Virus record (IMG/VR): IMGVR_UViG_3300027522_000008 | Location: 1-43,115 of that record | Length of the DNA stretch: 43,115 nucleotides | Strand: one strand, 5' to 3' | From: a virus | Shown: positions 1-38,264 of the stretch, in pieces | How the letters are laid out: the number at the start of each line of letters is the position of its first letter | Numbering within the stretch: the first letter of the stretch is position 1 | Translations under genes and position numbers: made by a program | Notes under the pieces: generated by a model | Seen by the model: the letters and a program-made list of their open reading frames with translations, nothing else | Told to the model about the DNA's origin: nothing | The model's database searches: none

Positions 1-3000
1 CGTCTTCTACGCCTTCTTGCAAAAATTTAGTAATATCGCTTTTAAATTGATCTGGGTCTAAAAAGCCTTTTTCGCGTTTGGATTTTTTCACTGCCTCTTG
101 TGCTTTTCTCATCGCCTCAGCCAACTCTGTGATGTCGTCACCCGCGATTTCTCCATCCGCAGCGACACTCCTTAGTACAGTACCCAAGTTGCTCATCGCG
201 TTCGTAGCCACTTCACCCTCAATACCATATTTCGACATCTGTAACCTTAGGTCCTGCATCGAGGAGGAGGTCTCAAGGATTACGTCTCTTGCATCGATAC
301 TACCCTTAATTGCCGCAGACTCTTTATCCCTAGCCTCAGAAAGTTTGAGCAATTGGTCGATTTGTTTGGTTAAATCAACCTCGGTCTTTTTACCCTTAGC
401 ATCATTGACTAGCGCATCCATGGTTTTCGAAATACCATTTTGTACTTCTTCAAAATTTTTCCTGCCAGCCGTGAATGACGACATATTAATGGTATCTTGG
501 AAGAGCATTATTTCTTTTCGAGCTTGCTTAAGCTTCTCTGCCATAAGTGCAGGGTCTATATCTTTTAAATCAAGATCTTGTCCTTTCTGATTTTTAAACA
601 ATGAGTCACTCAGCTCTGTCATGAATTTTTCAACTTTTTCCCGTTCTTTGTCGGGTAAAGATCTATTCGACCCACTAAAATCTTGGACAGCCTTCGCTAT
701 ATTCTCCATATTAGCCGCACGACTTGGAGCAGCGATTGTCTCGACCTTGTCCCGAGCTCTTCCCGCTTGAACCGGGTTCAGTGGATTACCGTCCCCAAAG
801 GGTGCGGACGTCTCACCCAAGGATATCATCTGTGCCTTAGTCTTTATCTCTTCAAGTGAGTCTTTAAGTTGTTTCATATCTGCGGCAGAAAGTACACCAT
901 CATCATCAGTAAGCCTCGTAAGTAGTTCGTTCATGTCATAAAAGCCATCAACAATCATTTGGTCACCTTCTTTTGTGCCTGCGAAACCCTTAAGATTTGA
1001 CATCTCGCCAAACGCCTTGCTGATCATCGTCGTCATCGACCCTACATTTTCCCTGCTCTTCTCCATGCCCCCCTTATCCAGCTGGTTGAGCGCTGTAGTC
1101 AACTTACCTAGACTAGTTGTATTGTTCTGAAGTTCGGTTTTTAGCTGACCGATTTCTTTATTATATTGTGTGATCGCCTTCTCCTGCGAGGCCTTCGCCC
1201 TTTCCAGATTCGCAATACTCTTCTCGGCAGCTACTCTCTTTTTGGTGGCTTCATCCGCAGCGCGCTGCCAAGTTGATTCATTCGCCAACATAGCATCATA
1301 CTCTCGAGTGTTCTCACGCTTGTTACTCGGAAAATCGGGCTTTCCCGCTCTGAAGGCCTCCTCGTACATTGGTGTACCGTATTTGTGGCCCGCCGGCAGT
1401 GCTTTGCCCTCCTCGGGTGTTCGCCCCCAGCGACCAGTGTCCTTGTCACCGATCCAAGTCCCTCCTCTGGCATTCTTTTCAAAAGCTTCGCGGGCTGCCC
1501 TTGTTGTTTCTTTATTTTTCAGTGAAGTTTCTTCGTTTTGTTTCAAAAGAGCCAACCCCTCAATAGTTTTAGTAAGGGCGGCACTGGTTCTGGCAAAGGC
1601 TTCTGCCGCGACGCCGCGGGCGTGCTCGCGCCCTTTTAAAGTTTGCGCGATTTTGTCCCCTTCGGCTCCCCCTCCAGCATATTGTTTTTGTAATCTTTGA
1701 AGTTCCTTTGACTGTTCACTCCCGGCTGAGAAAGCTGCCATTGGATTACCCAAACCCCTTCTCGCTGCCCAATTGGCTCTGGGTTGCCCGGGGATGCTAC
1801 CGCCCCCACCAAAGCCCGGGCCGCGATCACCACCGACGCCGCCCTGCGCGCCAATGGGCAGCCCGGTGACAGGGTCAGTTCCCCCTCCCCCTTCTTTACC
1901 AGCATCCTGCCAATTTGCAATAAACACCTTTAAGTTGTTTTTGCCATCAAATGAGAATCTCTCGTTTTGAGAAAACAGATCTTTTATCTCTCTGTCAGGT
2001 TTAATTAAATTTTTAGCTTGAGTTCTTGAAATGTCTTCTAGTTTTTTGTTGCTGAAGATTTGCTCCGACGACCCACCGAGCATTTTATCTAAGAATAACC
2101 TATGATTCTTTTGAAGTTGCTGGGTTAAGGGTTCAACATAGGCATTAGCGGGGTTATTGCCACCGGGGTCGGTAAGGCTTCTGAGCATTTTAAGATTGGC
2201 TATCATGCCGCTCGTTTGTAAATCCCTGCCCGAATCCCCAAGCATATTTCCTTGTTTATAATTTAATTTGTTAGATTCCCAGTCTTTAAAAGCTTTGATG
2301 GGGGCTCCGGCAGCGCCCCCGATACCACCTGCAAAACTTATTTGCTGAGCTAATTTCAACTGAGCCGTAGCAGCTACTTTCATCGCTTTCGCGTAGTCCA
2401 TCTCTGCCTTCTGCTTAGCCCTCATCACTGTAATTTCTCGAGATGTTGCGGAAGTGAGGTCCTCTAACGCTTCCCGATGCTTCTTCATATTAGCGACAAC
2501 AACTCTATTCTCCGCACCACCGGCGGGGCCCTTTGCCATTTTAATGGCATCAGCGATAGCCTTGTCTGCCCCTGATAAATCTGCATTTCTTATTGCTTCA
2601 AAAAATGCTGGGCCAAACTTTTTATTTATTTGGTTCTGAAAGTCTTTACCCATGAAGCCGCCCTTCTGAGGAGTAAGCTTTTCAGTCCCCCTTACCTTAC
2701 TAAGAAGATGTGTTTCGAGATCCGACATTAGAGCTTCTTGTTTTTTAACCTGAAGGTCATTTAGCTCGTTCGCATGTTTTATTCTGAGCCTGCGCTCTTC
2801 TGAAGCGGCGTTAAATTCTATTAGCGTTCGTTCTGAAGCTGTTTTAGAAAGATTATCTACTAGAGTCTTAGTTCCAAGGTCAAACATCTTAAGAGTCTGA
2901 TCTTCGAAAAGTTTAGTTAGTGATTTTTTTAATGTTATTTGATTTTTAAGACCCTTAAGGTTGTTTTTGAATTTTTGAATTTCGTCATGAAGAAGACTAG

Positions 3001-6000
3001 TTTCCTTCGCAAATGCATCCTCTTCTTTAATCAAGCCCTCTTCCATAGTGGCCCGCCGCTTTAAAATTGGAAGTAATTTTCCATTGATGATCATGTGCAA
3101 TCTCATGAAGTCATCTTCATCTAGATTAACTTTTTGATCCATTTCCTTGAGTGATTCGAGAAGATCCTTCTGCTCTGCTGAAAGACCGTCAAGGGAAGAG
3201 AGTTGTGCCACCACCTTCCTATTGTAGGCTTGCGCTTCATCTTGGGAGATATTATACTCATCTGAGAGACTCTTACCACTGTCCTTCAAATTAGTAAACT
3301 CCTTCAACATTTCTCTAGCCTTCTTCTGACCCACACCATCCAGCATACTTGCAAACCCCTGTGCCGCCTTAGCCATGTTTTCTGCAGAGGTATCCTTTGA
3401 ATATAGCATACCTTGATTTTGAGCGAAGGCATCTAGTGCCGTTGCTGAAGCCCCTGCCCCTTGGGCCATTTGATTAAATCTCGATGCGGCACTTTTTATA
3501 GCTGCATTAAGCTCTCGAATATCTTCTACACTCGTATTAACATCTTGGATTTTTGAAATAACCTCGGCCTTGGTGTTTAACTTATCTTTGCCAACAGTAA
3601 CACCACCACTCCTCTTCATTGTGTCGCCAATGCCGGCGAGATTCAGGCTTCTGATTATGTCATTCTTTGCAGCCGCGACCCCAGCCGCGTCCCCTTTACC
3701 AAGGGCTTTACCAAACGCAGAGGTTGCCTCACTGGCTTTGGACATGTGTTCATTAAGATTTTTAAAAGACTCGGCAGATTTTTTTGCAGCCTCTTGTACT
3801 CGTTTACGGGCAGCCGCTCCCTTTGCGTCATAAGCCCCCTGCATTAGCTTATTAACCCCGATTCCAACCGCCGCTACTGCGAGAGCAATTGCAACCGCTG
3901 GGTTAGCCGCTGCTGCGGCATACGCAGCGCGCCCGCCACGTGCAATTCCGCCGCCCATCCTAGCTCCCAGACCCTTCGTGCCACCCCCCTTATTAGCTTT
4001 AAAACGCATATCCGGCTTTCCGGACTTAGTAAGAGGCCCACTGAAGGCACTTTTTCCCATACTGACTTTCGCAGAGGCGATGACGCTTTTAGTCCATACA
4101 GCCAACCCTGCGATGCTGGCGCTAATCCCTGTACCAAGTTTACTAAGAGCGCCCAATATTCCCCCGTAGCTTTGGGTAGCCATTGCAATCATGGGATAAT
4201 ACATCGCAAAAGAGGCCGATAAATCCAGTACACTGCTACTAAATGTAGAGACACCCTCATTTGTCTCTTTTAGTCTATCACTCATGACGCTCAGTTGACT
4301 ACCGACCATCATCATGCCCATTGACATGCCCATGCCCATATCATCGCCGCCACCTTGTTTTTTCTGTGCAAAGTTAGGAATATAACCATCCGCTTTTCCC
4401 TGTCTTTGGATGCTTTTCATGGTCGCACCGGAAGCTAGATGCATATTAATTGCATTACCTAGTGAACCCTCTTTGGTATTGTAAACCCCTGTACCGCCGT
4501 TCAAGCGATCATCATGACCCACGCGTACCTGATCTCTTCTTACTCCAGCGCGGTCTTCTCTATCTATAGCTGCTCCAAGCCCTCCAAGTGCGAAGTTTGG
4601 AATAAAACCTCCCGCCTTGGTTTTTTTGGACAGGAGCCCTGTATCGGCTCTTGCAGACGTATTGTTTGTCGGCCTAGAAATTAAGCTCTCAAACACAACC
4701 TTATTCCGACGAAGCCCGTCAACAACAACTTCCTTTGGCATACTGCCTACCATACCTTGAAGCTGTTTTAAGCTTCTAAATTTTTTCTCTGGCCCCACTT
4801 CAGGCATTGAGAGGATGCCAGATGTGACCATGTTCGGTCTCATTCTGTGTCGAAGCTGGGGAAACGCAACTTTACTCATCCCTTCGAAAGGTGACATGCG
4901 GCCTAATAATTCAGATTTTCTTTTCTCAGGTGACTGCGAAGGGAGACCGGCCCAAAGTTGATTGATTAACTGGCTTGAATATATTGGTTTGCCTGTCTCT
5001 TGGCTGACATTAGCTAACTCTTTAAATTGTTGAAATCCCCTTCCTTTTCGTTTTGACATGTTATATTGAATCTGAAGGGCCTCCTGCCCGGCAAGCCCTG
5101 AAGAACGCGAGTGCATCTTGCCCGATGTGTAATCCATCCTCCCACCCTCATCACCACCAATATACTTCATGCCCCCGCGCTCGCCATCATCCCAACGCCG
5201 CAAGCCCGGTGCTAGCTTGTTCTTATTGAGCGTCTTAGCTAGGTGAGCCCTCTGTTTCTCCGCCCAAGGGTTGGCTCTTGGGGCCATAAAATTAGGAACA
5301 AAACCGAGTGCCGAAATTGCCTTCTGCATTCTAGTCGCCGTACTCAGCTTTTGTTTTTGAGTCATTTTCCGCGCACCAGACGAACCGGGTCCAGCCTTCA
5401 GATTTTTTCCAAGCCCGGGTAACTCTGTCGCGAACCTCGCCCCCAGCCCCATATCATCAAGAAGACCCTCGGTATATGCCTTATTTATAAGACTTTGCTT
5501 GGCCTCACCCGTAGCTGACCTTTTTGCATCAGCCTTCTTTAATTGGGAACCGAATTTAAAAGTTTTTATAAATTTAGAGTTTGCTTTCTCCCCTCTCCCC
5601 TCTTCAAAATCAAACGGAGCCTTAAAGCTTCCGCCCGCCTCCGATAGCTCATCTAGCTGCCCGGGGGTATTGGTGGCAATCCTTGCTAGATTTTCAAATA
5701 TGTCTCCCTCCGTACCGGGGGATAAAAAGGCATTTGATTTTTTAAGTGAATCTACTAGCCCTTTCTTGTCTTTAAGTCTGCCTTTATGGTTAAGTCCTGT
5801 ATGCTTAAGAAACTGCTCAGTTAAACTTACCATTGGCCCTGCCATGTGATCTGAGATTTGTTGAGAAAACTTTTTCGAAGTTTCATCTCCTTTTTTTGGC
5901 ATACTTTGAAGAGAGCTTATCTGCAAACCTGTAAATTTTATCGAATCATTTGATAAATCATTACTCTTCATTAGGTCCGAAAGTGCAGGTATTTTCTTAA

Positions 6001-8230
6001 TCGGCAGTTGAGCGTGGTCTGACTTATTCGGCGTTCCATAATAAGATAAAAGACCTATTGCTCCCTGCGTATTATATGTATGTATATTTCGGGGATTTTT
6101 GGGCTCTCTGCCAGCCTTAGATTCTTTTATATTTTTTTGTGTACCATAACTATAACCCTGACCCGACGCCACATGACTAGGGTCGAGTTTTCCCTCATTT
6201 ATTTTTCGAGTAATAGTGGATTGAGACATAGACCCTTTGCCCATTATGCCTGCCCCTAGCGATGTAAGTTTTAAGTTAGCAAAATTCGGAACAAATCCAC
6301 CCGCAGAATTATAAGGGTCATACCCATGTACACCCTTAAATGAGTCTCTGTAATTATTGCCCGCAGAAGACGTTCGTGGTGGCATAATGCCCGGCTGTTG
6401 TAATCCCGGAAATTTCTTTATTTCTTCATTACCATTATAAGTAACTTTTCCTACCCCCGGAATGGTGGCTTCTTTTATTTTGCCCGCTTGGTAGCCGCCA
6501 GCTTTCGCGAGCCTTTTTTCTTGAACTTCTTGACTAAAGTTAGGAACAAATCCAGAAGCAGCGCCCATATTGAAGCTGGGAATAAAACCGCCTGCCTTGG
6601 GTTTTTTGCCCCCCGTTCTCTTTGCGCCCCCCTGCATTGCTAATACCGCTGGCGCAGCCTTTTGTGCAGCCAGCGTAAGTTTTTCCATTTCTGCTCTAGA
6701 TTCTTTAATTTTCTGAGCCAACACACGAGCGACTGCCACCATCCCCTCTTCTGAAGCTGTGGCTTGATTAATAAGCGCGGGGCGTTGAGCTAAAATATTT
6801 TGAATTATATTTTGTGTACTTGCTAGTTTTTGGGAAGCAGTTTCCATTCCCATGAAACCCGCAGCAGCGTCTTTGACAAATACTGCTAACTTAGCTCCTA
6901 TTTTGACAAGCACAAAACCAAGCAATGCTAGCCCCGGACCGCTTATGATTTTCCCCATGCCCTCATACACAGCGGTACCAACTGTTTCACCCAAACCAAA
7001 AAAGTTTTTAGGGCTTATCAAATCAGCAAAGCCATTTACCATTTTAAGAATTCTATCTAAAGCGGGTTTAACAGTAAGGGCACCTACCTCTGTTGCAAAC
7101 TTGGTTAAATTAACCATCGTTTTATTTACCATACCTTCAGTGGTAGAAGTCAAAAGTCCCATGCGTTGAGTAGCTTCATTAGTAGTTTCATTGGCTACCA
7201 TTAATGCTTTTTGATATTTTCCTGTCTCATTAGCTAGTTCAGGCAGAACAGCTTTTAAAACGTTTACCTGAAAAACACCCGCTAACATTTCAGAAGAGGT
7301 AGCTCTAAGTGATGGAGCTAGTGAACCATAAACTTTTGCATAGTTTTCTAAAACTTTCATAGCAGGAAGTAGCTCCCCGCTTGTTTTTCGTACAGCCACG
7401 CCAAGAGATTCTAGTTGACGCAGGGTTTCTGGTCTCTGAATCCTCGTAAAAATAGTTTTAAAGCTATTACCAATAACCGCACCACCCCGAGCAGTCTTTT
7501 CTTGAGCGGTGGTTACAATCGAAATCAATTCCTCGAAACTAACATTCGCACTATTAGCCGCAGCACCCGTCCTTTTGATAGCTTCTGCCAAATCACCAGA
7601 GCTAACAGCAAATTTAGCATCTACCTGAGCCATCTTATTAACAATCTGCGTTGAGTTACCAGCAGCTTTACCAAAGGTGTTTATGGCGGCGGTTAGTGAT
7701 TCCGTTGCATTTTTAACATCCATACCACCTAATTTTGCAAGGGTCATGGCGGCGGTTGTTCTTTTTAGTGACTGTTCAACATTTAAACCCTGCCTAGCAA
7801 ATTCTTCCGCAGATTCAGCAACCTCATAAAAACTATGCCCCGTGGCTTTGGCAGCCTTGAAAAGTCCATTTGAAAATCTTTCGAAATCTTTACCGGTGGC
7901 ATTCAGAAGGACTTGAATATTTGTGAGTTGCTGCTCTACTTTGATAGTCGTCTTAACGAGCTCTGACATCGCTTTTTGAACAGCAAAAATAGCACCAGCC
8001 GAAGCACCGAATGCAATGACACGAGCGTTAGAAGCTTCTAGTGATTTATTGAACTCATTTGCCGCCCCAGTAATACGTCCAAGGGGCTGTGTAAAATTCT
8101 TGGCAACAATGGGGTTTTTATTGAAGGACTGAGTTTTATTGAAAAGGGCTTGAAGCTGCTGCTCCGCCTTCCGCATTTCTGAAGCGGGGACGTTGATTCC
8201 AATATCAATTGTTGCACTATTCCTAGCCAT
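1..8230 (-). CDS. Tail tape measure protein, 3' end beyond window
   Basis: An open frame runs from ATG at 8230, behind an AAAGGA ribosome site, past the left edge without a stop (at least 2,743 residues). The protein sets tail length and sits in the tube lumen. Residues about 60-350 resemble the TP901-type tape-measure core (alpha-helical, Ala-rich, with GASAGAIFAVQKAMSELVK and the segment FARQGLNVEQSLKRTTAAMTLAK). Two hydrophobic Gly/Ala-rich segments lie near residues 420-450 and 1360-1460. Six GF(V/I)PNF-type repeats lie between residues about 545 and 1285. Long coiled-coil-like stretches follow. It comes after two tail-assembly genes, the standard order. An AGTGTAAT promoter-like motif lies 22 nt upstream. 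Very long for the family; at about 1.5 angstrom per residue it implies a tail of roughly 400 nm or more. Confidence 0.93.
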   Translation of the reverse strand, partial: MARNSATIDIGINVPASEMRKAEQQLQALFNKTQSFNKNPIVAKNFTQPLGRITGAANEFNKSLEASNARVIAFGASAGAIFAVQKAMSELVKTTIKVEQQLTNIQVLLNATGKDFERFSNGLFKAAKATGHSFYEVAESAEEFARQGLNVEQSLKRTTAAMTLAKLGGMDVKNATESLTAAINTFGKAAGNSTQIVNKMAQVDAKFAVSSGDLAEAIKRTGAAANSANVSFEELISIVTTAQEKTARGGAVIGNSFKTIFTRIQRPETLRQLESLGVAVRKTSGELLPAMKVLENYAKVYGSLAPSLRATSSEMLAGVFQVNVLKAVLPELANETGKYQKALMVANETTNEATQRMGLLTSTTEGMVNKTMVNLTKFATEVGALTVKPALDRILKMVNGFADLISPKNFFGLGETVGTAVYEGMGKIISGPGLALLGFVLVKIGAKLAVFVKDAAAGFMGMETASQKLASTQNIIQNILAQRPALINQATASEEGMVAVARVLAQKIKESRAEMEKLTLAAQKAAPAVLAMQGGAKRTGGKKPKAGGFIPSFNMGAASGFVPNFSQEVQEKRLAKAGGYQAGKIKEATIPGVGKVTYNGNEEIKKFPGLQQPGIMPPRTSSAGNNYRDSFKGVHGYDPYNSAGGFVPNFANLKLTSLGAGIMGKGSMSQSTITRKINEGKLDPSHVASGQGYSYGTQKNIKESKAGREPKNPRNIHTYNTQGAIGLLSYYGTPNKSDHAQLPIKKIPALSDLMKSNDLSNDSIKFTGLQISSLQSMPKKGDETSKKFSQQISDHMAGPMVSLTEQFLKHTGLNHKGRLKDKKGLVDSLKKSNAFLSPGTEGDIFENLARIATNTPGQLDELSEAGGSFKAPFDFEEGRGEKANSKFIKTFKFGSQLKKADAKRSATGEAKQSLINKAYTEGLLDDMGLGARFATELPGLGKNLKAGPGSSGARKMTQKQKLSTATRMQKAISALGFVPNFMAPRANPWAEKQRAHLAKTLNKNKLAPGLRRWDDGERGGMKYIGGDEGGRMDYTSGKMHSRSSGLAGQEALQIQYNMSKRKGRGFQQFKELANVSQETGKPIYSSQLINQLWAGLPSQSPEKRKSELLGRMSPFEGMSKVAFPQLRHRMRPNMVTSGILSMPEVGPEKKFRSLKQLQGMVGSMPKEVVVDGLRRNKVVFESLISRPTNNTSARADTGLLSKKTKAGGFIPNFALGGLGAAIDREDRAGVRRDQVRVGHDDRLNGGTGVYNTKEGSLGNAINMHLASGATMKSIQRQGKADGYIPNFAQKKQGGGDDMGMGMSMGMMMVGSQLSVMSDRLKETNEGVSTFSSSVLDLSASFAMYYPMIAMATQSYGGILGALSKLGTGISASIAGLAVWTKSVIASAKVSMGKSAFSGPLTKSGKPDMRFKANKGGGTKGLGARMGGGIARGGRAAYAAAAANPAVAIALAVAAVGIGVNKLMQGAYDAKGAAARKRVQEAAKKSAESFKNLNEHMSKASEATSAFGKALGKGDAAGVAAAKNDIIRSLNLAGIGDTMKRSGGVTVGKDKLNTKAEVISKIQDVNTSVEDIRELNAAIKSAASRFNQMAQGAGASATALDAFAQNQGMLYSKDTSAENMAKAAQGFASMLDGVGQKKAREMLKEFTNLKDSGKSLSDEYNISQDEAQAYNRKVVAQLSSLDGLSAEQKDLLESLKEMDQKVNLDEDDFMRLHMIINGKLLPILKRRATMEEGLIKEEDAFAKETSLLHDEIQKFKNNLKGLKNQITLKKSLTKLFEDQTLKMFDLGTKTLVDNLSKTASERTLIEFNAASEERRLRIKHANELNDLQVKKQEALMSDLETHLLSKVRGTEKLTPQKGGFMGKDFQNQINKKFGPAFFEAIRNADLSGADKAIADAIKMAKGPAGGAENRVVVANMKKHREALEDLTSATSREITVMRAKQKAEMDYAKAMKVAATAQLKLAQQISFAGGIGGAAGAPIKAFKDWESNKLNYKQGNMLGDSGRDLQTSGMIANLKMLRSLTDPGGNNPANAYVEPLTQQLQKNHRLFLDKMLGGSSEQIFSNKKLEDISRTQAKNLIKPDREIKDLFSQNERFSFDGKNNLKVFIANWQDAGKEGGGGTDPVTGLPIGAQGGVGGDRGPGFGGGGSIPGQPRANWAARRGLGNPMAAFSAGSEQSKELQRLQKQYAGGGAEGDKIAQTLKGREHARGVAAEAFARTSAALTKTIEGLALLKQNEETSLKNKETTRAAREAFEKNARGGTWIGDKDTGRWGRTPEEGKALPAGHKYGTPMYEEAFRAGKPDFPSNKRENTREYDAMLANESTWQRAADEATKKRVAAEKSIANLERAKASQEKAITQYNKEIGQLKTELQNNTTSLGKLTTALNQLDKGGMEKSRENVGSMTTMISKAFGEMSNLKGFAGTKEGDQMIVDGFYDMNELLTRLTDDDGVLSAADMKQLKDSLEEIKTKAQMISLGETSAPFGDGNPLNPVQAGRARDKVETIAAPSRAANMENIAKAVQDFSGSNRSLPDKEREKVEKFMTELSDSLFKNQKGQDLDLKDIDPALMAEKLKQARKEIMLFQDTINMSSFTAGRKNFEEVQNGISKTMDALVNDAKGKKTEVDLTKQIDQLLKLSEARDKESAAIKGSIDARDVILETSSSMQDLRLQMSKYGIEGEVATNAMSNLGTVLRSVAADGEIAGDDITELAEAMRKAQEAVKKSKREKGFLDPDQFKSDITKFLQEGVED
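4370..6604 (-). repeat. Six dispersed GFxPNF peptide repeats inside the tape measure gene
   Basis: Short near-identical peptides recur: AGGFIPSFN (about 6604-6567), SGFVPNFS (6560-6535), AGGFVPNFA (6303-6278), ALGFVPNFM (5312-5286), AGGFIPNFA (4616-4591) and ADGYIPNFA (4395-4370). The spacing is irregular (about 13 to 330 residues), so this is not a simple tandem duplication. Each is preceded by Ala/Gly/Lys-rich sequence and followed by a stretch with a different composition. Function unknown. Confidence 0.9.
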
Positions 8231-8268: not shown

Positions 8269-9234
8269 CTATTCGCCGTGTAATTTTATTAAGTCATCCA
8301 TGTCCAAATGACCGCCCTTTTCAGCAGCAGCTTTGGCTAAGGATATGCCTCCATCCGGTGCACCAGATGTAAGACCCATGCGCTTCATGTCTTCCTGTGT
8401 GGCACCCACTACGGTAGTAGCCGAAGATTCGTCCATTTTTTGCTTTATTTTGTCACTGTTTTTACTGACATTGAATAAGTCAATTAGCTTATCTGGATCT
8501 GACATCGTTTCTGGGTCTGGGTCATGTTTAAGCTCAGAAAGTATATGTTTAAAGTATTTACCGAAACTAAAGAGTTCGTTTTGATTAAATGTTAATTCCA
8601 CAACAGGTCTTCCATAAAAAATAAATGGATTGTCCTCACATAAATAAAAAGAATTAAGAAAAAATCCCGAAAGAGCAACCCTTTTAAGGTTGTGGTCAGA
8701 ATACATCTCAGAAAGGACGTTGTAATTAGCAATTAATAAAAGGATATCTTTTTCATGAATTTCCTCGAAAACTTCTGCACTAAAAAGTGGCACCTTGCAT
8801 TCTGCGTCTTTATAAGAGGTTGTATATATAAAAAATTCATTTACTTTTTTTGTAGCATAAGACTCTACCGTGTATCCGACTAACTCGAGTTTCTCTGAAG
8901 CGATCTCTGCATGTTCTTGTTGTACATCATTAATCTGCTTCTGAATAGAGTCCATATCAGCCTGCAATATGAATTTAGATTTTGTTATCTTTAAGGCTGA
9001 TGCTTGTTGTAAGCACTCTTTTATTCGAGTATCTTTTTCAGAAGACCACAAACCTTCCTTTTCTAGATCTTTTAGTTTTTCCTCTTCAGTTGGAAGACCC
9101 TTACTTTTTGCATGATTTTCATATTCTTTTTTTCTTTCATCAATCTCCTCTGAAGAGAAGAGATCTATATGTTTTAGATAAAAGGTGCCAAATTTTTCTA
9201 AATAAGATTTATTATACCCACGGATTACATCCAT
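8269..9234 (-). CDS. Putative tail assembly protein (hypothetical, 321 aa)
   Basis: Not recognised by sequence. It lies between the tail tube and tape measure, where tail assembly chaperones normally sit, and is soluble and highly charged with a predicted coiled-coil around residues 30-130. A longer reading could start at 9276, but that start follows a terminator U-tract with no ribosome site. ATG at 9234 has a near-perfect AGGAG 5 nt upstream and is preferred. The C-terminal 60 residues are Gly/Ala-rich and look flexible. No slippery frameshift junction with the upstream gene is evident because the terminator separates them. Confidence 0.75.
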   Translation of the reverse strand: MDVIRGYNKSYLEKFGTFYLKHIDLFSSEEIDERKKEYENHAKSKGLPTEEEKLKDLEKEGLWSSEKDTRIKECLQQASALKITKSKFILQADMDSIQKQINDVQQEHAEIASEKLELVGYTVESYATKKVNEFFIYTTSYKDAECKVPLFSAEVFEEIHEKDILLLIANYNVLSEMYSDHNLKRVALSGFFLNSFYLCEDNPFIFYGRPVVELTFNQNELFSFGKYFKHILSELKHDPDPETMSDPDKLIDLFNVSKNSDKIKQKMDESSATTVVGATQEDMKRMGLTSGAPDGGISLAKAAAEKGGHLDMDDLIKLHGE

Positions 9235-9279
9235 GTATACTCCTCTTAATAGATGTGGTTCAATTTTTTTAGACATTAC

Positions 9280-9324: not shown

Positions 9325-10326
9325 CTATGCATTGTTATCAGAACTTTCTTGTGAATCTTCGGTTGACCCCGAGTCTTCCACGGGAGGCTCTTCCACGGGA
9401 GGCTCTTCCACGGGAGGCTCTTCCACGGGAGGCTCTTCTACGGGGGGCTCTTCTACGGGGACTTTCTTTTTTGCCTTTTTCTTTTTAGCAGTTTTCTTTT
9501 GAGGGGGATCTGCCTCTTCAGTAGATTCTTCTTTTTTATCTCCAGCTTGCGCGAGTGCTTCCATTGAGGCATCCTCCAGTCCTGAAGCTTCTAGTTCTCC
9601 CAAAAGCTTCTTAAACTCTTCTTCGGTTTGAGCATTACCCACGTACCAATAGCTTACATAATAAATCAACTTCCTAAGAAGCTCTTCATAAAAAGGATCA
9701 TCCGACTCCTCCAAGGAGTCATAGGAGCTTAGTCTTTCCTCATGAATATCACCCGGAAAAACGTTTATAGGATTTTCTCCATTGTCATCTGTCAGATAAG
9801 CGAGATTTAACACCCACCATAAAATGGTTTTATTGCGTGCTCGATTTTCTGCAGTTTGTTCAAATAGAGATGCCTGAGCTAATTCAAAATCTTGAATTTT
9901 TCTTTTAAGAATACCACCCTCTTTCACAAAGGTAGCAAATTGACCCTTTTGCTCTTCGCTTCGGTTGTCAGACTTAACTGCTGAAAGCCTCTCTATTTCT
10001 CTTTGATTTTCAAATAACTCTAGATAAAGATCAGCGTATTCCTCTTTATCGTCATCACTCATCACTCCGCCATCATTAGAAAATCTTTTAGCTAAAAGAG
10101 CTCTTGTCAAAAGCCCAGCTTTAATGCCTTTGGAAAGAATTACGCCATAGTAAAGCTCCGCGTCATCAAACATGATTCGATTGGGTTTACGCAAGATAAC
10201 GTGTTGCTCTACCTCAACTTCTACCTCTTTGCTGACAGTGACCTCGTTGCCTTCTGAGTCTTTGCTTTTTTCTTCTACTTTCGTAGTTGAACTTTTTTTC
10301 AGAACAAACTGATATAATCTTTTCAT
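9325..10326 (-). CDS. Putative tail assembly protein with acidic Pro-Val-Glu repeat tail
   Basis: 333 residues, not recognised by family. Residues 1-35 are charged and residues 35-230 look like a folded helical domain. The C-terminal third has a Lys/Ala-rich stretch (KKTAKKKKAKKK) followed by PVEEP repeats and an acidic Ser-rich end. ATG at 10326 has the ribosome site GGTAAAAGG and begins 5 nt after the preceding stop, so the two genes are cotranscribed. Position between tail tube and tape measure suggests a tail chaperone or tail accessory role (inference). A strong terminator follows it. Confidence 0.75.
   Translation of the reverse strand: MKRLYQFVLKKSSTTKVEEKSKDSEGNEVTVSKEVEVEVEQHVILRKPNRIMFDDAELYYGVILSKGIKAGLLTRALLAKRFSNDGGVMSDDDKEEYADLYLELFENQREIERLSAVKSDNRSEEQKGQFATFVKEGGILKRKIQDFELAQASLFEQTAENRARNKTILWWVLNLAYLTDDNGENPINVFPGDIHEERLSSYDSLEESDDPFYEELLRKLIYYVSYWYVGNAQTEEEFKKLLGELEASGLEDASMEALAQAGDKKEESTEEADPPQKKTAKKKKAKKKVPVEEPPVEEPPVEEPPVEEPPVEEPPVEDSGSTEDSQESSDNNA
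9376..9461 (-). repeat. 15-bp tandem repeat encoding PVEEP
   Basis: Four exact copies of a 15-bp unit (plus-strand ttccacgggaggctc) start at 9376, 9391, 9406 and 9421. A fifth unit with two changes starts at 9436, and a partial sixth at 9451. They encode PVEEP in frame. Identity at the DNA level indicates recent slippage expansion. Confidence 0.92.
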
Positions 10327-21925: not shown

Positions 21926-23116
21926 TTATTCTAAATCGCCAAGTTTTTTCAATTCTTCTAATTTGGCATGAGGTTTTTGTATTCCCCCAATTGCCGTGTA
22001 GACTGTTAGATCGGGTTTGTCCCCGCTATAAATTCCACGATGGACAACGCTCCCCTTTGTTAGCATGCGGGAGAATTGATCAAAAGCCCTATCAAGATTC
22101 TGTTGTGGTAATGTCTCTAAAATTTGTTTTCCGCCAACGATAACTACACCAGCAGAGTTACCACTACTTAAATCAACACCACCAGAAAGCATGTTGTTTT
22201 TTAAATTATCTCTAACCACTTTGCTAATACTGGAGGGACCATCCCAGTCGCTAACGCCAGCGGCACCAAAAACAATTAACCCAGTATCTAACACCTGTTT
22301 ATAGTCATTGGAATCAAAAGCAGAATAGCTGCTATTTTTAGCTGCGGTATGATTAAATAGGTGAAATAATCCCGCAATACTCATGTTAGCGGTTTCCCAG
22401 AAAGTCCCCACTGGTAACCCCGGATAAAGAGTATTGATTTTTTCGTTGTCTAGTATTATTAGAGGAGATACTATTCCGCGCTCAACCAGATCCCAAACCT
22501 TAACCAAGGTGGCATAAGCATTTGCATTAACCTTTTTTCCTTCGGAATGTTTTGGTAATGCAAGCACAACGCCTACTTTATCAGTGGGAGCCTTAATGGT
22601 CCGTTGCATTTCTTGGGCGGTCTCAACCAATGGACAAACAGTTCCTGCACCCGAGCCACCGCCAGCCCCAGCACAAACAAAAATTCTATCTACTGACTCC
22701 CCAAAAGAATCATACATGAAATCGAGAACATCTTCTCTATGATCAGTATATAGTCTTTCAGCAATATCGGGGTTTTTTCCAGCCCCTCCATTACCAATAC
22801 AGAGTTTATTATCAAGATTAATTGTATTTAAATCCTGCTGAGCTGTGTTAAGAACGGCAATTTTTCTATAGCCTAATTTATGAAAAGATTCTGCAATTCT
22901 AGAGCCTCCCTGCCCCGCACCGATAAAAGCAAAGTTAAAAGCGACATTGCAATTATCCTTATTTTTATCTTCCTTTTCCGCCACCACTTTAGGCATCGGG
23001 ATAGGAATTTCAGGCATAGAAATATCGACACTAGAATCTGTATTCATATAAGAATCTAGATCATCAACGGGGGGTTGATTATCTGGCGTGGGAGAATTTA
23101 GATTTTCAGTATTCAT
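21926..23116 (-). CDS. FtsZ/tubulin-like GTPase
   Basis: 396 residues. The first 55 are Pro/Asp-rich and probably disordered. The GTPase fold follows: FIGAGQGGSRIAESF near residue 64 (first loop), NGGAGKNPDIAERL near 109, and the tubulin signature AGGGSGAGT at 151-159 (FtsZ GGGTGTG loop). The T7 loop aligns as SAFDSNDYKQVL (residues 265-276) with FtsZ INVDFADVRTVM, so both Asp are present (268 and 271) but the first Asn is Ala266. Phage tubulins such as PhuZ and TubZ form filaments that position DNA or capsids; that role is inferred here. It lies between a small acidic gene and the holin, in the same operon. Confidence 0.85.
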   Translation of the reverse strand: MNTENLNSPTPDNQPPVDDLDSYMNTDSSVDISMPEIPIPMPKVVAEKEDKNKDNCNVAFNFAFIGAGQGGSRIAESFHKLGYRKIAVLNTAQQDLNTINLDNKLCIGNGGAGKNPDIAERLYTDHREDVLDFMYDSFGESVDRIFVCAGAGGGSGAGTVCPLVETAQEMQRTIKAPTDKVGVVLALPKHSEGKKVNANAYATLVKVWDLVERGIVSPLIILDNEKINTLYPGLPVGTFWETANMSIAGLFHLFNHTAAKNSSYSAFDSNDYKQVLDTGLIVFGAAGVSDWDGPSSISKVVRDNLKNNMLSGGVDLSSGNSAGVVIVGGKQILETLPQQNLDRAFDQFSRMLTKGSVVHRGIYSGDKPDLTVYTAIGGIQKPHAKLEELKKLGDLE

Positions 23117-30101: not shown

Positions 30102-31913
30102 TCATATCATTATGGGAGCAAAAGTCTCCTCCGGACCTTCCTCCTTCGTTAGCATTATATCATAATAGCACTTTAAAGTCCACATGCCCAACATTAAAGT
30201 AGTATAGTTATCTCTTCGGGCCCTAGTAGAGGAGGTGTTTCTTTTTAAATGCTGGGGAAGGTCGAAAGTTTGAGTTCCCTTGGCCGTACTCTTCACCTCA
30301 ATGAGAGCACACTGCTTTTTTGTTTGGTGTATTAAATTATCCTGCTCTTCGATAAGGTCTAACACGGTTTCACCTTTTTTAAATTTTAGCTCAATTTTTT
30401 GATTGGTCATCCTGTTAAAAGTCTCGTTACTGGCTGTCGCCTTAGATGCAAACCACAATCTTTTATGATCAATAGATGCCTGTAATTGCTCGTTGGCTTT
30501 TCGCAACCAGTTAGATGTAAATACCTGTTTAAAGCAAATTTTTCCATCTTGTTTATTATACTGTTTGCGAGAGCTCTTAATTTCTTTTTGATAATTAATT
30601 CCTTCTGCATCACTATTAAAATCAAAAAAATCTAGCTTCTTAGTAAAGGCCCCTGATTCATTACAGCTATCAATAAATTGAAACCCTGCATTATCAATAC
30701 ATATCATTTCAAAATCAAAAGCATTACATAAATAATTAAAATATACAATGTGATCTTTTAGATCCCCACCAGCAATCGCATAACCATGGACAAGGGTTCC
30801 TGTTTGTGTCTCATTGTCAAGTTCAATTACTGACATTGCAAAAAAGTCAGAACTGGGGCTATTAGAAAAACTAGGGTCAATTGCACAGATATACTTCGAG
30901 TCTGATTCGCCCACTATTTTTGTTGTGGGGTGTTCACCATCGGGGACAGTACACTCGTGCATTTTTTTTGCACTAAAATAAGAATCACTGCCGTCAGTAA
31001 ATTGAGCACAATATTCCCGGCGAAAAGAGGCGTTGGAAGTTCCACCGCTTCTAGCCTCTTCAATAATAGTAGTATCTATCATCTCTTCTGGCAGAGCTTC
31101 ATACCCTAATTGACCTATAAAATAAGAAGACTCTTTTTTTTCTTTACTGTAAATATTTTGCATCCACTCTTTGTAAGTTTTATATAAATTTTCAAAAGTA
31201 TAAGAAGCTGACGATAGTGCTATCATTTTAGAATTGTTTTCAAAAACCATTCTATCTTTTTCTTTCATTACCCCCTCTTTTATAAGGCTGTCTTCGACCT
31301 CTCTGATCTCTAAGCGTTCCTTCATGTTTTGTGGTGCAACCAAAAAGGGCATTAGAACATTATTGATAATATCCTCCGGTAAAAGAAGGTACTCATCAAG
31401 CACTAGTATGTTTGCTCGGAATCCTCGAATTTTTTCACCGTTAAGTGGAATGGCCGTAATCGAGCCTCCATTAATTTGCCATTCAAATTGGTCATTTCGT
31501 TTTGCCTTAGAACCAAACGCTTGAGCAAGAAGTTCAGCCCCTTTAGATTCAACCATCTTCTCTAAGTTGTTAAAAATAAAACGAGCAGTACGAAAGGTTG
31601 GGCCTGCAACAAGAATTTTTGTTCCCGGTTCAAAGATGCACTGTAGAAAACAAAATACAGCAGCCAAAAAAGTTTTTCCACAACCGCGACCCAAAACAAG
31701 CATACTAAAATTATTATTTAGCATACCCTTTAACAGTACCTCTTGAAAGGGTGCAAGTTTGATTCCTGAAATAAGTTCCGTCGTAAGCCCTAGGTTAGCT
31801 CTTAAAAACTTAGCCAAAGTAATCTTGGACTCTTTATTTTCGAGCTCCCCTTTTAAGGCTCTGAACTGAGCATTAATATCAGTTAGCTTTTTTGTTTCTT
31901 GTGCGTACCACAT
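30102..31913 (-). CDS. Large terminase subunit (TerL)
   Basis: 603 residues. ATPase motifs: Walker A LGRGCGKT (about 74-81) and Walker B ILVLDE (169-174). The nuclease half begins with CAIDPSFSNSPSSDFFAM (Asp346), with ICIDNAGF near 400. It packages DNA into proheads and cuts concatemers. The start overlaps the stop of the ERCC4 nuclease gene (TAATG). Upstream lie candidate TerS, sulfotransferase and nuclease genes, downstream the portal. Confidence 0.95.
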   Translation of the reverse strand: MWYAQETKKLTDINAQFRALKGELENKESKITLAKFLRANLGLTTELISGIKLAPFQEVLLKGMLNNNFSMLVLGRGCGKTFLAAVFCFLQCIFEPGTKILVAGPTFRTARFIFNNLEKMVESKGAELLAQAFGSKAKRNDQFEWQINGGSITAIPLNGEKIRGFRANILVLDEYLLLPEDIINNVLMPFLVAPQNMKERLEIREVEDSLIKEGVMKEKDRMVFENNSKMIALSSASYTFENLYKTYKEWMQNIYSKEKKESSYFIGQLGYEALPEEMIDTTIIEEARSGGTSNASFRREYCAQFTDGSDSYFSAKKMHECTVPDGEHPTTKIVGESDSKYICAIDPSFSNSPSSDFFAMSVIELDNETQTGTLVHGYAIAGGDLKDHIVYFNYLCNAFDFEMICIDNAGFQFIDSCNESGAFTKKLDFFDFNSDAEGINYQKEIKSSRKQYNKQDGKICFKQVFTSNWLRKANEQLQASIDHKRLWFASKATASNETFNRMTNQKIELKFKKGETVLDLIEEQDNLIHQTKKQCALIEVKSTAKGTQTFDLPQHLKRNTSSTRARRDNYTTLMLGMWTLKCYYDIMLTKEEGPEETFAPIMI

Positions 31914-32887
31914 TATAAAATTTTGTTATCATAACAATATTGCAGATCAACATGTCCATGATTTGAATCTCCTAAAAATATTTTCTCGATGACCCTAGAA
32001 GCATCATCCCTGTTATTAACAAATAAAAATTGAACATGGGGATAGGCTTGAATTAAATATCTTACATTATGAAAAACATATTCTGGAGTAGCTTTAATTT
32101 TTTTCGACACCTGTGGCAAATGATTAAAAGACCGGCATTTATTTATGTTTTCTTCTACCAAGATAATTAAACTTGTACTAGCTTCCCCCGCTCTTTCAAT
32201 TTCATTTACGAATCTTTTAAAACCCCCGCTCAGAGTTCCAACAAAGTCGCTAACAGACTTTCTTTCTATATGACATGCCCCCGAGCAACCGGGGTGGCTA
32301 AATGCATAATCTCCAAATTTTAAATTCTTAACCTCAGTGTTCACACCAAACTTTAAAGGCTTTTGCTCTCTAGTATCTACATAAATTTTAAATTTCTGTT
32401 TAATAGATTTTTTATCTAATTCACGGCCATATTCTCCTTTGGGATTGCGGAATTTAGGAAGTAAGCCAATCTCCTCGCAAAGGTCATAGTAGTCTCCAAA
32501 CAGCGCATTGTAGATTTGAATTGCTGGCATCATTAGTGTTCGAAGCTCAACTTGTGTTGGCGCAAATATTAAATTCTTTTTTTCTTTTCTTATTACGAGC
32601 AACTCCCTGCAGTAGCTCTTGGCTGTCTCCTTATCTTGATCTTTAAGCCAAAGCCTTAAATTAGTTCGTGAATTAAAATCATGTTCAAAGTAATAGTCTT
32701 TACTTTTGAACTTAATAATCTTGCCATCATGTTTGTCGTGTCGTGGGTAATGCGTTTGATAATATTCAGCCATTCTCATCTTGTGGGCTTTAAGGTGACC
32801 GTGAAGCTGTCGCTCTGTGTCAAATACCTTTTCGCAAGCAGCGCACTTCTGTTTTTTAGAATTCATAATTAAAGTATTCGATGTCAT
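31913..32887 (-). CDS. C2H2 zinc finger plus ERCC4-type nuclease
   Basis: 324 residues. Residues 15-36 form a zinc finger (CAACEKVFDTERQLHGHLKAH). The second half has KIYVDTREQKPLKFGV, LKFGDYAFSHPGC and CHIERKSVSDFVGTL, the conserved GDY...ERK core of ERCC4/XPF nucleases. It could resolve branched DNA or help process ends. Being fused into the terminase operon is unusual and suggests a packaging role (inference). The start is uncertain: ATG 32887 overlaps the sulfotransferase end by 32 nt, ATG 32866 is an alternative. Confidence 0.8.
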   Translation of the reverse strand: MTSNTLIMNSKKQKCAACEKVFDTERQLHGHLKAHKMRMAEYYQTHYPRHDKHDGKIIKFKSKDYYFEHDFNSRTNLRLWLKDQDKETAKSYCRELLVIRKEKKNLIFAPTQVELRTLMMPAIQIYNALFGDYYDLCEEIGLLPKFRNPKGEYGRELDKKSIKQKFKIYVDTREQKPLKFGVNTEVKNLKFGDYAFSHPGCSGACHIERKSVSDFVGTLSGGFKRFVNEIERAGEASTSLIILVEENINKCRSFNHLPQVSKKIKATPEYVFHNVRYLIQAYPHVQFLFVNNRDDASRVIEKIFLGDSNHGHVDLQYCYDNKIL

Positions 32888-37180: not shown

Positions 37181-37936
37181 TTATCCCAAGTGTTTTAGTT
37201 TTCCAACAAGGAATTTAACTAGCTCAGAGCGCATAATATCTTCTTCAGTAAATTTAAAAGTATATACTCCATGCTCTAGGCTGTCTTGGTCTTCATGAAA
37301 AAGATCATACATTTTACTAAAACCACTTTTCCCCCCATGTAAATCAGTTTGCATAGGATCTGCCAGAACAAAGCACTTAGACCCTTCACCCAGACGGGTC
37401 AGGATGGTCGTAATTTCCTTTGTAGTGCAGTTTTGAGCTTCATCCATGATAATACACTTGTTCGTCCAGTTAACGCCTCTAGCGAAGTTTACGGGGAACA
37501 TTGAAATACGCTCTTCTTTTTCCAAACGCTCTGTAGTTGTGTCTGGAAGTAGCTCATCAAGTTTTTCTAAAAGAGGAATTTTATAGTAAGCCAGTTTTTC
37601 ATCTGCACTTCCCGGTAAAAAACCGATTCTTTGATCAGAAGATTCAACAGAAGACCTTAAATACACAAGATCAGAGATACATTTCATATTAAGCATCTGT
37701 AATGCACAATATACAGCGAGTAGGGTTTTACTTGTCCCTGCGGGACCATCAACAAATGTTATTTTTGTATTTCTATCTAAAGCGATACGAAAGAAATCCC
37801 TTTGTTTCTCAGTCCATTTGAACTGATTGATTTTTATTTGTCTTTTAATCGGATCGAAGGCTGTCATTTCTTCTGCGATCTCATCCGCTAACTCGATTCT
37901 CTCGCCTCTCTTGGAGGCCTTGTTTCTTTTAGCCAT
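37181..37936 (-). CDS. phoH: PhoH-like ATPase
   Basis: 251 residues from ATG 37936. Walker A TFVDGPAGTSKTLLAVYCAL and Walker B IIMDEAQNCTTKEITTILTR are characteristic of PhoH, an ATPase widespread in phages, often found with phosphate or late transcription genes; exact role unsettled. A longer reading from 38002 adds 22 unconserved residues; 37936 is preferred because AGTGTAATTATATATACAT lies immediately upstream, so translation may begin from a very short leader without a ribosome site. Confidence 0.9.
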   Translation of the reverse strand: MAKRNKASKRGERIELADEIAEEMTAFDPIKRQIKINQFKWTEKQRDFFRIALDRNTKITFVDGPAGTSKTLLAVYCALQMLNMKCISDLVYLRSSVESSDQRIGFLPGSADEKLAYYKIPLLEKLDELLPDTTTERLEKEERISMFPVNFARGVNWTNKCIIMDEAQNCTTKEITTILTRLGEGSKCFVLADPMQTDLHGGKSGFSKMYDLFHEDQDSLEHGVYTFKFTEEDIMRSELVKFLVGKLKHLG

Positions 37937-37946
37937 GTATATATAA

Positions 37947-37954
37947 TTACACTT
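37947..37954 (-). promoter_or_regulatory. AGTGTAAT late-promoter-like motif before phoH
   Basis: The best copy of the motif: AAAGTGTAATTATATATACAT ends at the ATG. Distance from GTGTAA to the start codon is only 10 nt, so a transcript starting just downstream would be nearly leaderless. Confidence 0.65.
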
Positions 37955-38264
37955 TAAATTAAAAAAGTGCCCGCCGATTTTTTGACCTTTACCCCCAAGC
38001 ATATTTAAATGTATTTAAATATATTTGAAAAAGGGGGGGGTGCCTTTATTTATATGATAAGAGATGTATATTAGAAGACTTTTGGTTTCTCGGGGAGACT
38101 CAGGATACCCCCCACGCACCGGAAAGGCAACAAAAAAAGACCGTTTTTTTTCAAAAAGGGGGTGGGGCTATATTAAAATCGCCTTTAAATATCATTTTAA
38201 ATACCATTTTAAACAATTACCTTAAACGATTACCTTAAATGATTTCACTAAAGAAATCAACGGA
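37955..38264. other. AT-rich non-coding divider with TTTAAAT and CCTTAAA repeats
   Basis: No gene is seen here. At 37990-38030 and 38180-38215 TTTAAAT-type words recur at least six times. A direct repeat CGATTACCTTAAA / GATTACCTTAAAT lies near 38205-38255. A G8 run lies at about 38032-38040 and a second G-rich run near 38157. An A7-GACCG-T8 inverted element lies near 38134-38153. It separates the early (right) from late (left) genes. Candidate origin or regulatory region (inference). Confidence 0.4.

Follow-up and report, generated by a model that had tools for sequence, protein, structure and literature searches.

In the tape measure protein (TMP) encoded by the DNA analysed here, a nine-residue peptide motif that is present in several copies marks the exact boundaries at which modules, i.e., the stretches between motifs, have been gained, lost, and swapped among related proteins. 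Considered alone, the proposition that the centre of this protein consists of exchangeable cargo punctuated by the motif is one that we hold with high confidence. This role of the copies as joints between exchangeable domains is the main fact concerning them and it was absent from a preliminary description of the same DNA, which in the following is referred to as the window and comprises a whole IMG/VR record of 43,115 bases. We propose in addition that the TMP carries exchangeable effector domains between membrane-type segments and that the motif most likely serves as the processing site by which they are freed, a proposal for which the probabilities appear to us evenly balanced.

The open reading frame (ORF) for the TMP is located at positions 2..8230 on the minus strand, where it extends over 2743 aa in the window and is open at the left window end. 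Its assignment is based upon a PhageMin_Tail domain (PF10145, E-value 1.2e-28 in Pfam), which covers aa 127–314 (7289..7852, minus strand) and represents the conserved N-terminal domain of the TMP, together with the great length of the ORF (2743+ aa) and its location in the tail gene region. The N-terminus also matches, distantly, the annotated TMPs of cultured phages. A near-identical sibling of the window, L159, contains a complete TMP of 3671 aa (L159 2240-13252). The usual tape measure ratio is 0.15 nm of tail per residue, and by this ratio a protein of such length would correspond to a tail of >500 nm, unless the cargo is not counted. The stretch that follows the last motif has a median length of 1300 aa, and its length does not track that of the motif region (r = −0.11). 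No match to the window was found in Rfam.

The window TMP contains six copies of the relaxed motif, all of them on the minus strand: GFIPSF at aa 548 (copy 1; 6572..6589), GFVPNF at aa 560 (copy 2; 6536..6553), aa 645 (copy 3; 6281..6298) and aa 976 (copy 4; 5288..5305), GFIPNF at aa 1208 (copy 5; 4592..4609), and GYIPNF at aa 1282 (copy 6; 4370..4387). The preliminary description had counted six copies of GF(V/I)PNF; this number stands for the relaxed motif, but the strict form is found in only four of them, the remaining two showing an F-to-Y (GYIPNF) and an N-to-S (GFIPSF) change. The degenerate copy 1 lies 12 aa before copy 2, and this pair may have been left behind when a module was lost. 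As had been stated previously, the spacing of the copies is irregular (12, 85, 331, 232, and 74 residues), and a set of 314 non-redundant cargo spacings showed no periodicity; the conserved spacing that had been suggested as a supporting observation is refuted. The number of copies is far beyond chance, whereas copies at chance level, together with an absence of processing, had been named as the outcome that would refute the earlier reading: the composition of the protein leads one to expect 0.00018 copies versus the six observed. Similarly, a degenerate DNA pattern for the motif gave five matches in the window versus none in 100 shuffles, and 374 copies were present in the ORF set versus 0.0 in shuffles.

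In 254 non-redundant contexts, the motif has the consensus [AS]-[GS]-G-[FY]-[IV]-P-N-F-A and conservation is limited to positions −2 to +6. The segment G-[FY]-[IV]-P-N-F is near-invariant, with its P, N, and last F conserved at 98–100%, and the residues directly upstream of the motif are small and flexible. As the scan patterns fixed one motif copy per contig and left the other copies unconstrained, one copy per contig is biased and the others are unbiased. Conservation that is confined to about nine residues looks like that of a short recognition peptide. Codon usage inside the motif is largely that of the gene at large, apart from a mild third-position T bias (CCT 0.62 vs. 0.35); the synonymous sites are near background and, therefore, selection acts on the peptide and not on a DNA word.

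When IMG/VR was scanned with degenerate DNA patterns, at least 120 stretches were retrieved per scan, and a pattern requiring two motifs was found in 74 stretches. Among the loci gathered by these scans, 273 ORFs contained the motif, 233 of them in 2–8 copies. A sample independent of the motif was obtained by fetching TMPs via their N-terminal domain alone (query A9). Among those whose 3′ end is complete, all 58 have 2–9 copies (mode four), and every one of the 265 copies found in the TMPs fetched in this manner lies downstream of the N-terminal domain; the motif was not found in the other ORFs of at least 100 aa from the same loci (290,000 residues). The relatives that were fetched share at least 59% identity with the query and, therefore, this result concerns a clade and not all TMPs. 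The motif defines a large clade of TMPs from uncultured tailed phages. Four queries from the motif region yielded no match in 50,697 records of cultured phages; the earlier statement that similar peptides are found in the tape measures of other aquatic phages is thus borne out for uncultured viral contigs but not for the cultured phages searched with these queries. A scan of bacterial and archaeal genomes (257 Gb) with the pattern gave 33 stretches, which included three multi-copy ORFs on phage-like contigs; the remainder had at most one copy, and these single-copy matches give the chance background for the motif pattern. Separately, an unrelated family of ~1820-aa ORFs (L028, L066, L074, L085, and L103), for which no Pfam match was found, has one conserved GGFVPNFANQT near its C-terminus; this may be a chance occurrence or a second carrier of the motif.

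The motif region is bracketed by two hydrophobic, membrane-like segments. In the L159 protein two stretches, at 427–457 and 1439–1468, exceed a Kyte-Doolittle value of 1.5, and mapping of the L159 profile to the window places these segments at approximately aa 424–454 (6869..6961, minus strand) and at aa 1435–1464 (3839..3928, minus strand). With a Kyte-Doolittle value of >1.4, 58 of 61 relatives had a hydrophobic stretch upstream of the first motif (median distance 111 aa), 52 had one within 350 aa after the last motif, and four had one in the motif region itself. At a value of 1.6 the corresponding numbers before, after, and inside were 46, 31, and 0 of 61. The suggestion made earlier that the motif is a membrane signal does not agree with these results, as the membrane-like segments flank the motif region. 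The membrane topology considered below is a prediction from hydropathy alone. In many TMPs from the subgroup of the window, the region between the hydrophobic segments consists of a 76–79-aa unit A, a cargo slot, and a 65–78-aa unit B. In the window TMP, unit A (79 aa; 6299..6535, minus strand), which belongs to a 54-member family, lies between motifs 2 and 3, and unit B (68 aa; 4388..4591, minus strand), from an 86-member family, lies between the last two motifs. An AF2 model for the entire motif region was poor (pLDDT 39.5) and was relied upon only with reserve, unit A being its best-modelled part.

The boundaries of homology between TMPs coincide with the motifs at both the DNA and protein levels. 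The 128 TMP pairs whose DNA aligns at ≥80% identity have 230 alignment ends, of which 83% are within 15 nt of a motif centre; for positions placed at random in this region the figure is 9.6%. Of the protein-level homology breakpoints, 67% fall within 5 aa of a motif versus 7.8% by chance; BLAST extension through a conserved anchor may shift the ends a few residues toward the motif, but it cannot itself produce breaks. Individual pairs illustrate these events. L011 and L128 share 99% identity along 2220 nt, as far as a motif, where an extra module of ~500 nt follows in L128, beyond which the alignment resumes at 89%. L089 and L110 differ by a single insertion of ~587 nt that has a motif on each side, L024 and L072 by a single insertion of ~906 nt, and L069/L110 constitute another clean insertion pair. 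Cargo module 2 of the window (226 aa, aa 982–1207; 4610..5287, minus strand) is an extra module in comparison to L090 and L101, from which it is missing together with one motif, so that cargo module 1 adjoins unit B in these TMPs. The module designated m3 was found after at least six different partners. In the motif-independent set, 51% of the cargo modules in pairs with 90–98% identical N-termini had no homologue in the partner, and the C-terminal tape of such pairs showed a median identity of 69%. In the pair L331 and L335, the N-terminal parts are 95% and the C-terminal parts 88% identical, and no cargo module is shared. The low similarity outside the motif copies, which the preliminary description had pointed out, is accounted for by the exchange of the stretches between motifs among relatives. 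Such fast turnover of modules is typical of proteins in conflict with a host or with rivals, and the cargo modules may be of this kind.

Most of the 146 module representatives that were scanned against Pfam, including the two cargo modules of the window, had no match. Matches above the cut-off of Pfam itself were obtained for SNase (staphylococcal nuclease) in modules of L060 and L176, the latter also matching PDB thermonucleases by sequence (1.7e-4), for GNAT acetyltransferases in L031 and L034, and for HIGH_NTase1_ass, a cytidylyltransferase-associated region, in L027. One representative matched ART-PolyVal (1.3e-5) and another match was to DUF7178, neither of which was mapped to a named module; ART-PolyVal is an ADP-ribosyltransferase family of polyvalent proteins. 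The P-loop invariant residues are present in the A5 module family and the HAD-type invariant D.D.T in the A6 family. Different kinds of modules are combined in the TMPs of relatives such as L031 and L034, that of L031 containing a GNAT and an HExxH module and that of L034 a GNAT and a member of the P-loop family. Modules in L024 (2622-3200), L018 (596-1279), and L021 (6766-7419) contain a protein-kinase-like glycine-rich loop (e.g., LGRGIQGVFYKLG), for which Pfam gives no confirmation. PADLOC, when applied to half of the module representatives, produced only weak single matches.

The commonest kind of module is characterized by the pattern E-D-[D/E]xK (G..[FY]E, then D, then [D/E]xK), which was designed once some of the members were known and is present in 131 of 285 non-redundant modules (46%), versus 1.05 in shuffled and 1 in reversed sequences. 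This set is hypervariable and BLAST fails to connect all of its members. It includes cargo module 1 of the window (325 aa, aa 651–975; 5306..6280, minus strand), whose core lies at 5456-6094 and in which G130, E134, D162, K191, and K205 are invariant over 35 sequences. The signature E...D...[D/E]xK is that of the active site of PD-(D/E)XK nucleases, and it is present in this module. However, a search with Foldseek of PDB and BFVD using an AF2 model of module 1 (pLDDT 85, pTM 0.76) revealed no match, and hence the common fold of these nucleases was not recovered; because of this, and because the invariant D sits in a poorly modelled loop, the module was not assigned to the PD-(D/E)XK group. A putative nuclease function for cargo module 1 of the window is suggested only by the five invariant residues. 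Profile searches of PDB with the cargo 1, HAD-like, and m3 families identified nothing significant, and the hhalign comparison of two E-D-K families was likewise not significant.

In part of the genes from the window and from flanking representatives, Pfam and PHROG scans, in which a host protease or a phage head protease would escape recognition, matched no peptidase, a result that counts against processing at the motif. HExxH is absent from the TMPs of the window and L159; it occurs anywhere in the TMP in five of 69 relatives and zincin-like HExxH modules account for two of 285 modules. The HExxH cargo modules of L031 and L161 (aa 342–664 and aa 136–333 of their TMP ORFs, respectively), which resemble zincin metallopeptidases, are candidates for embedded processing enzymes in a few TMPs. 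Self-processing by a zincin was rejected as an explanation, since HExxH is rare among the modules and absent from the window TMP. The gene directly upstream of the TMP (8269..9276, minus strand) is strictly conserved beside motif-bearing TMPs. A second conserved upstream gene (9325..10326, minus strand) has a weak PHROG match to a tail protein and is, by its position, a candidate for a tail-assembly chaperone; the protein ends in a run of PPVEE repeats. Elsewhere in the window, the minus strand encodes a Tubulin/FtsZ-family GTPase (21926-23116; PF00091, 42.8 bits, E-value 9e-11), i.e., a phage tubulin, as well as the terminase large subunit (30102-31913), an ERCC4-type nuclease (31913-32887), and a PhoH-like protein (37181-38002). 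Phage tubulins centre the phage DNA in some jumbo phages. Most of the other window genes scanned had no informative PHROG match.

Tape measures are usually viewed as rulers and DNA-entry channels. They leave the tail before the DNA and enter the host envelope, where they are thought to form the channel for DNA entry. Delivery of the modules into the host with the virion is suggested by the identity of this protein as a tape measure, and we infer that the modules probably act as effectors that are delivered in this way. According to the mechanism that we propose, the TMP would reach the host envelope ahead of the DNA and its two hydrophobic segments would become embedded in the inner membrane of the host, the intervening loop facing the cytoplasm. 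The motifs would be protease-recognition sites that are cut at some stage, and each module would be freed early in infection to act on its own as an effector (e.g., as a nuclease or an acetyltransferase), the targets of which might be, for example, host DNA or defences. Processing is preferred because a loop between two membrane segments would stay tethered unless it is cut, and because recognition peptides at the module boundaries would suit release. Processing sites were among the possibilities raised in the preliminary description; the findings are compatible with this possibility and make it more likely, and our estimate for cleavage at the motif falls just short of even. More tentatively, the protein may be viewed as an effector polyprotein, in which hypervariable enzyme cassettes between membrane segments are cut at the nine-residue motif and delivered before the DNA; at the same tentative level, each infection would then yield a phage-specific set of separate cytoplasmic proteins, the cassettes for which are exchanged at the motifs.

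The main rival to processing, docking having likewise been raised in the preliminary description, is that the motif is a docking or loading site, recognized by a tail-assembly chaperone or else by the tube or tip of the tail and left uncut, by means of which the modules are kept unfolded or in register. The motif is short and sharply bounded, almost all of the exchanged modules have it at their ends, and the two strictly conserved upstream genes could encode a binding partner, all of which would accord with docking; however, periodicity and fixed spacing are absent, and general chaperone binding predicts that the motif should be spread along the tape, whereas it is confined to the cargo region. 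We consider docking to be rather unlikely, and its periodic variant along the tail tube was rejected in view of the lack of periodicity in module lengths. A lower probability is assigned to the motif being a passive linker or domain-boundary element, which tolerates insertion and is kept because other joints misfold. Although the small, flexible residues just upstream of the motif and its location in low-confidence stretches of the A1 model (itself poor overall) would suit a linker, the near-invariant G-[FY]-[IV]-P-N-F would be superfluous in one; the exact conservation of the motif across unrelated modules therefore points to recognition.

Two further explanations appear to us highly improbable, and to the same degree. 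If the motif were primarily a DNA recombination site, or a short homology promoting module exchange, the coincidence of DNA-level breakpoints with it and the mild third-position T bias would be understandable, but the other synonymous sites are at background, the DNA word is not conserved, and the reading frame is maintained. A membrane-active or translocation peptide that functions during DNA entry would be in keeping with the aromatic and aliphatic core of the motif and with the thought that TMPs form the entry channel; against this, nearly all relatives have their hydrophobic segments beyond the limits of the motif region, and the number of copies follows the modules and nothing that is channel-like.

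The processing of the TMP at the motif has partial precedents. Lambda gpH and other TMPs are proteolytically processed, and in this respect they are similar to what is proposed here; however, they are cut at a terminus or lose one internal segment, and are not cut at repeated internal sites. These cases are cited in a study of the TM4 mycobacteriophage (Piuri and Hatfull, 2006; PMC1796659), which discusses proteolytic processing of TMPs and in which the TMP inserts Mt1-Mt3 were considered, Mt3 being dispensable for viability. These inserts resemble the modules in being small enzyme-like domains inside a TMP, but they are single motifs of the peptidoglycan-hydrolase type for crossing the cell wall, and neither a repeated punctuation motif nor arrays of cytosolic-type enzymes are described for them. 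The polyvalent proteins of phages and conjugative elements, for which processing by zincins has been proposed (Iyer et al., 2017; PMC5512222), are similar to what is proposed here in that one long virion-delivered polypeptide carries many distinct effector domains (nucleases, ART, and others) and is proposed to be processed into units; as noted, one module matched ART-PolyVal. In contrast to them, the carrier here is a TMP (“tape” occurs 0 times in PMC5512222), a nine-residue separator is shared between the modules, and the window TMP lacks the zincin-like metallopeptidase typical of that class. The Sle1 protein of the contractile injection system (CIS) from Streptomyces lividans (PMC13277306) is likewise related to TMPs, has interchangeable domains, and is loaded in a tail-like particle; however, its variable domain is C-terminal and not an internal array, the system is a bacterial CIS and not a phage, and no word starting with “cleav” is present in that paper. 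In the literature searched, which was mostly open-access and without bioRxiv preprints, no paper was found that contains GFVPNF or GFIPNF, or that describes TMPs with a punctuating motif or with arrays of cargo. Thus, within the literature searched, multi-domain virion-delivered proteins, enzyme-like motifs in TMPs, and interchangeable TMP-related effectors are known, whereas the punctuating motif and the cargo arrays in TMPs are apparently new.

Phages with motif-bearing TMPs are common in IMG/VR and were not found in the cultured collection that was searched. When their TMPs are split at [AS][GS]G[FY][IV]PNFA, the result is a collection of domains that undergo rapid exchange and mostly lack a Pfam match; the motif also opens the question of processing to a direct test by proteomics. 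The same approach offers a means to seek cargo in other long virion proteins. If the modules are delivered effectors, they would represent a large unread set of proteins for early host takeover or counter-defence.
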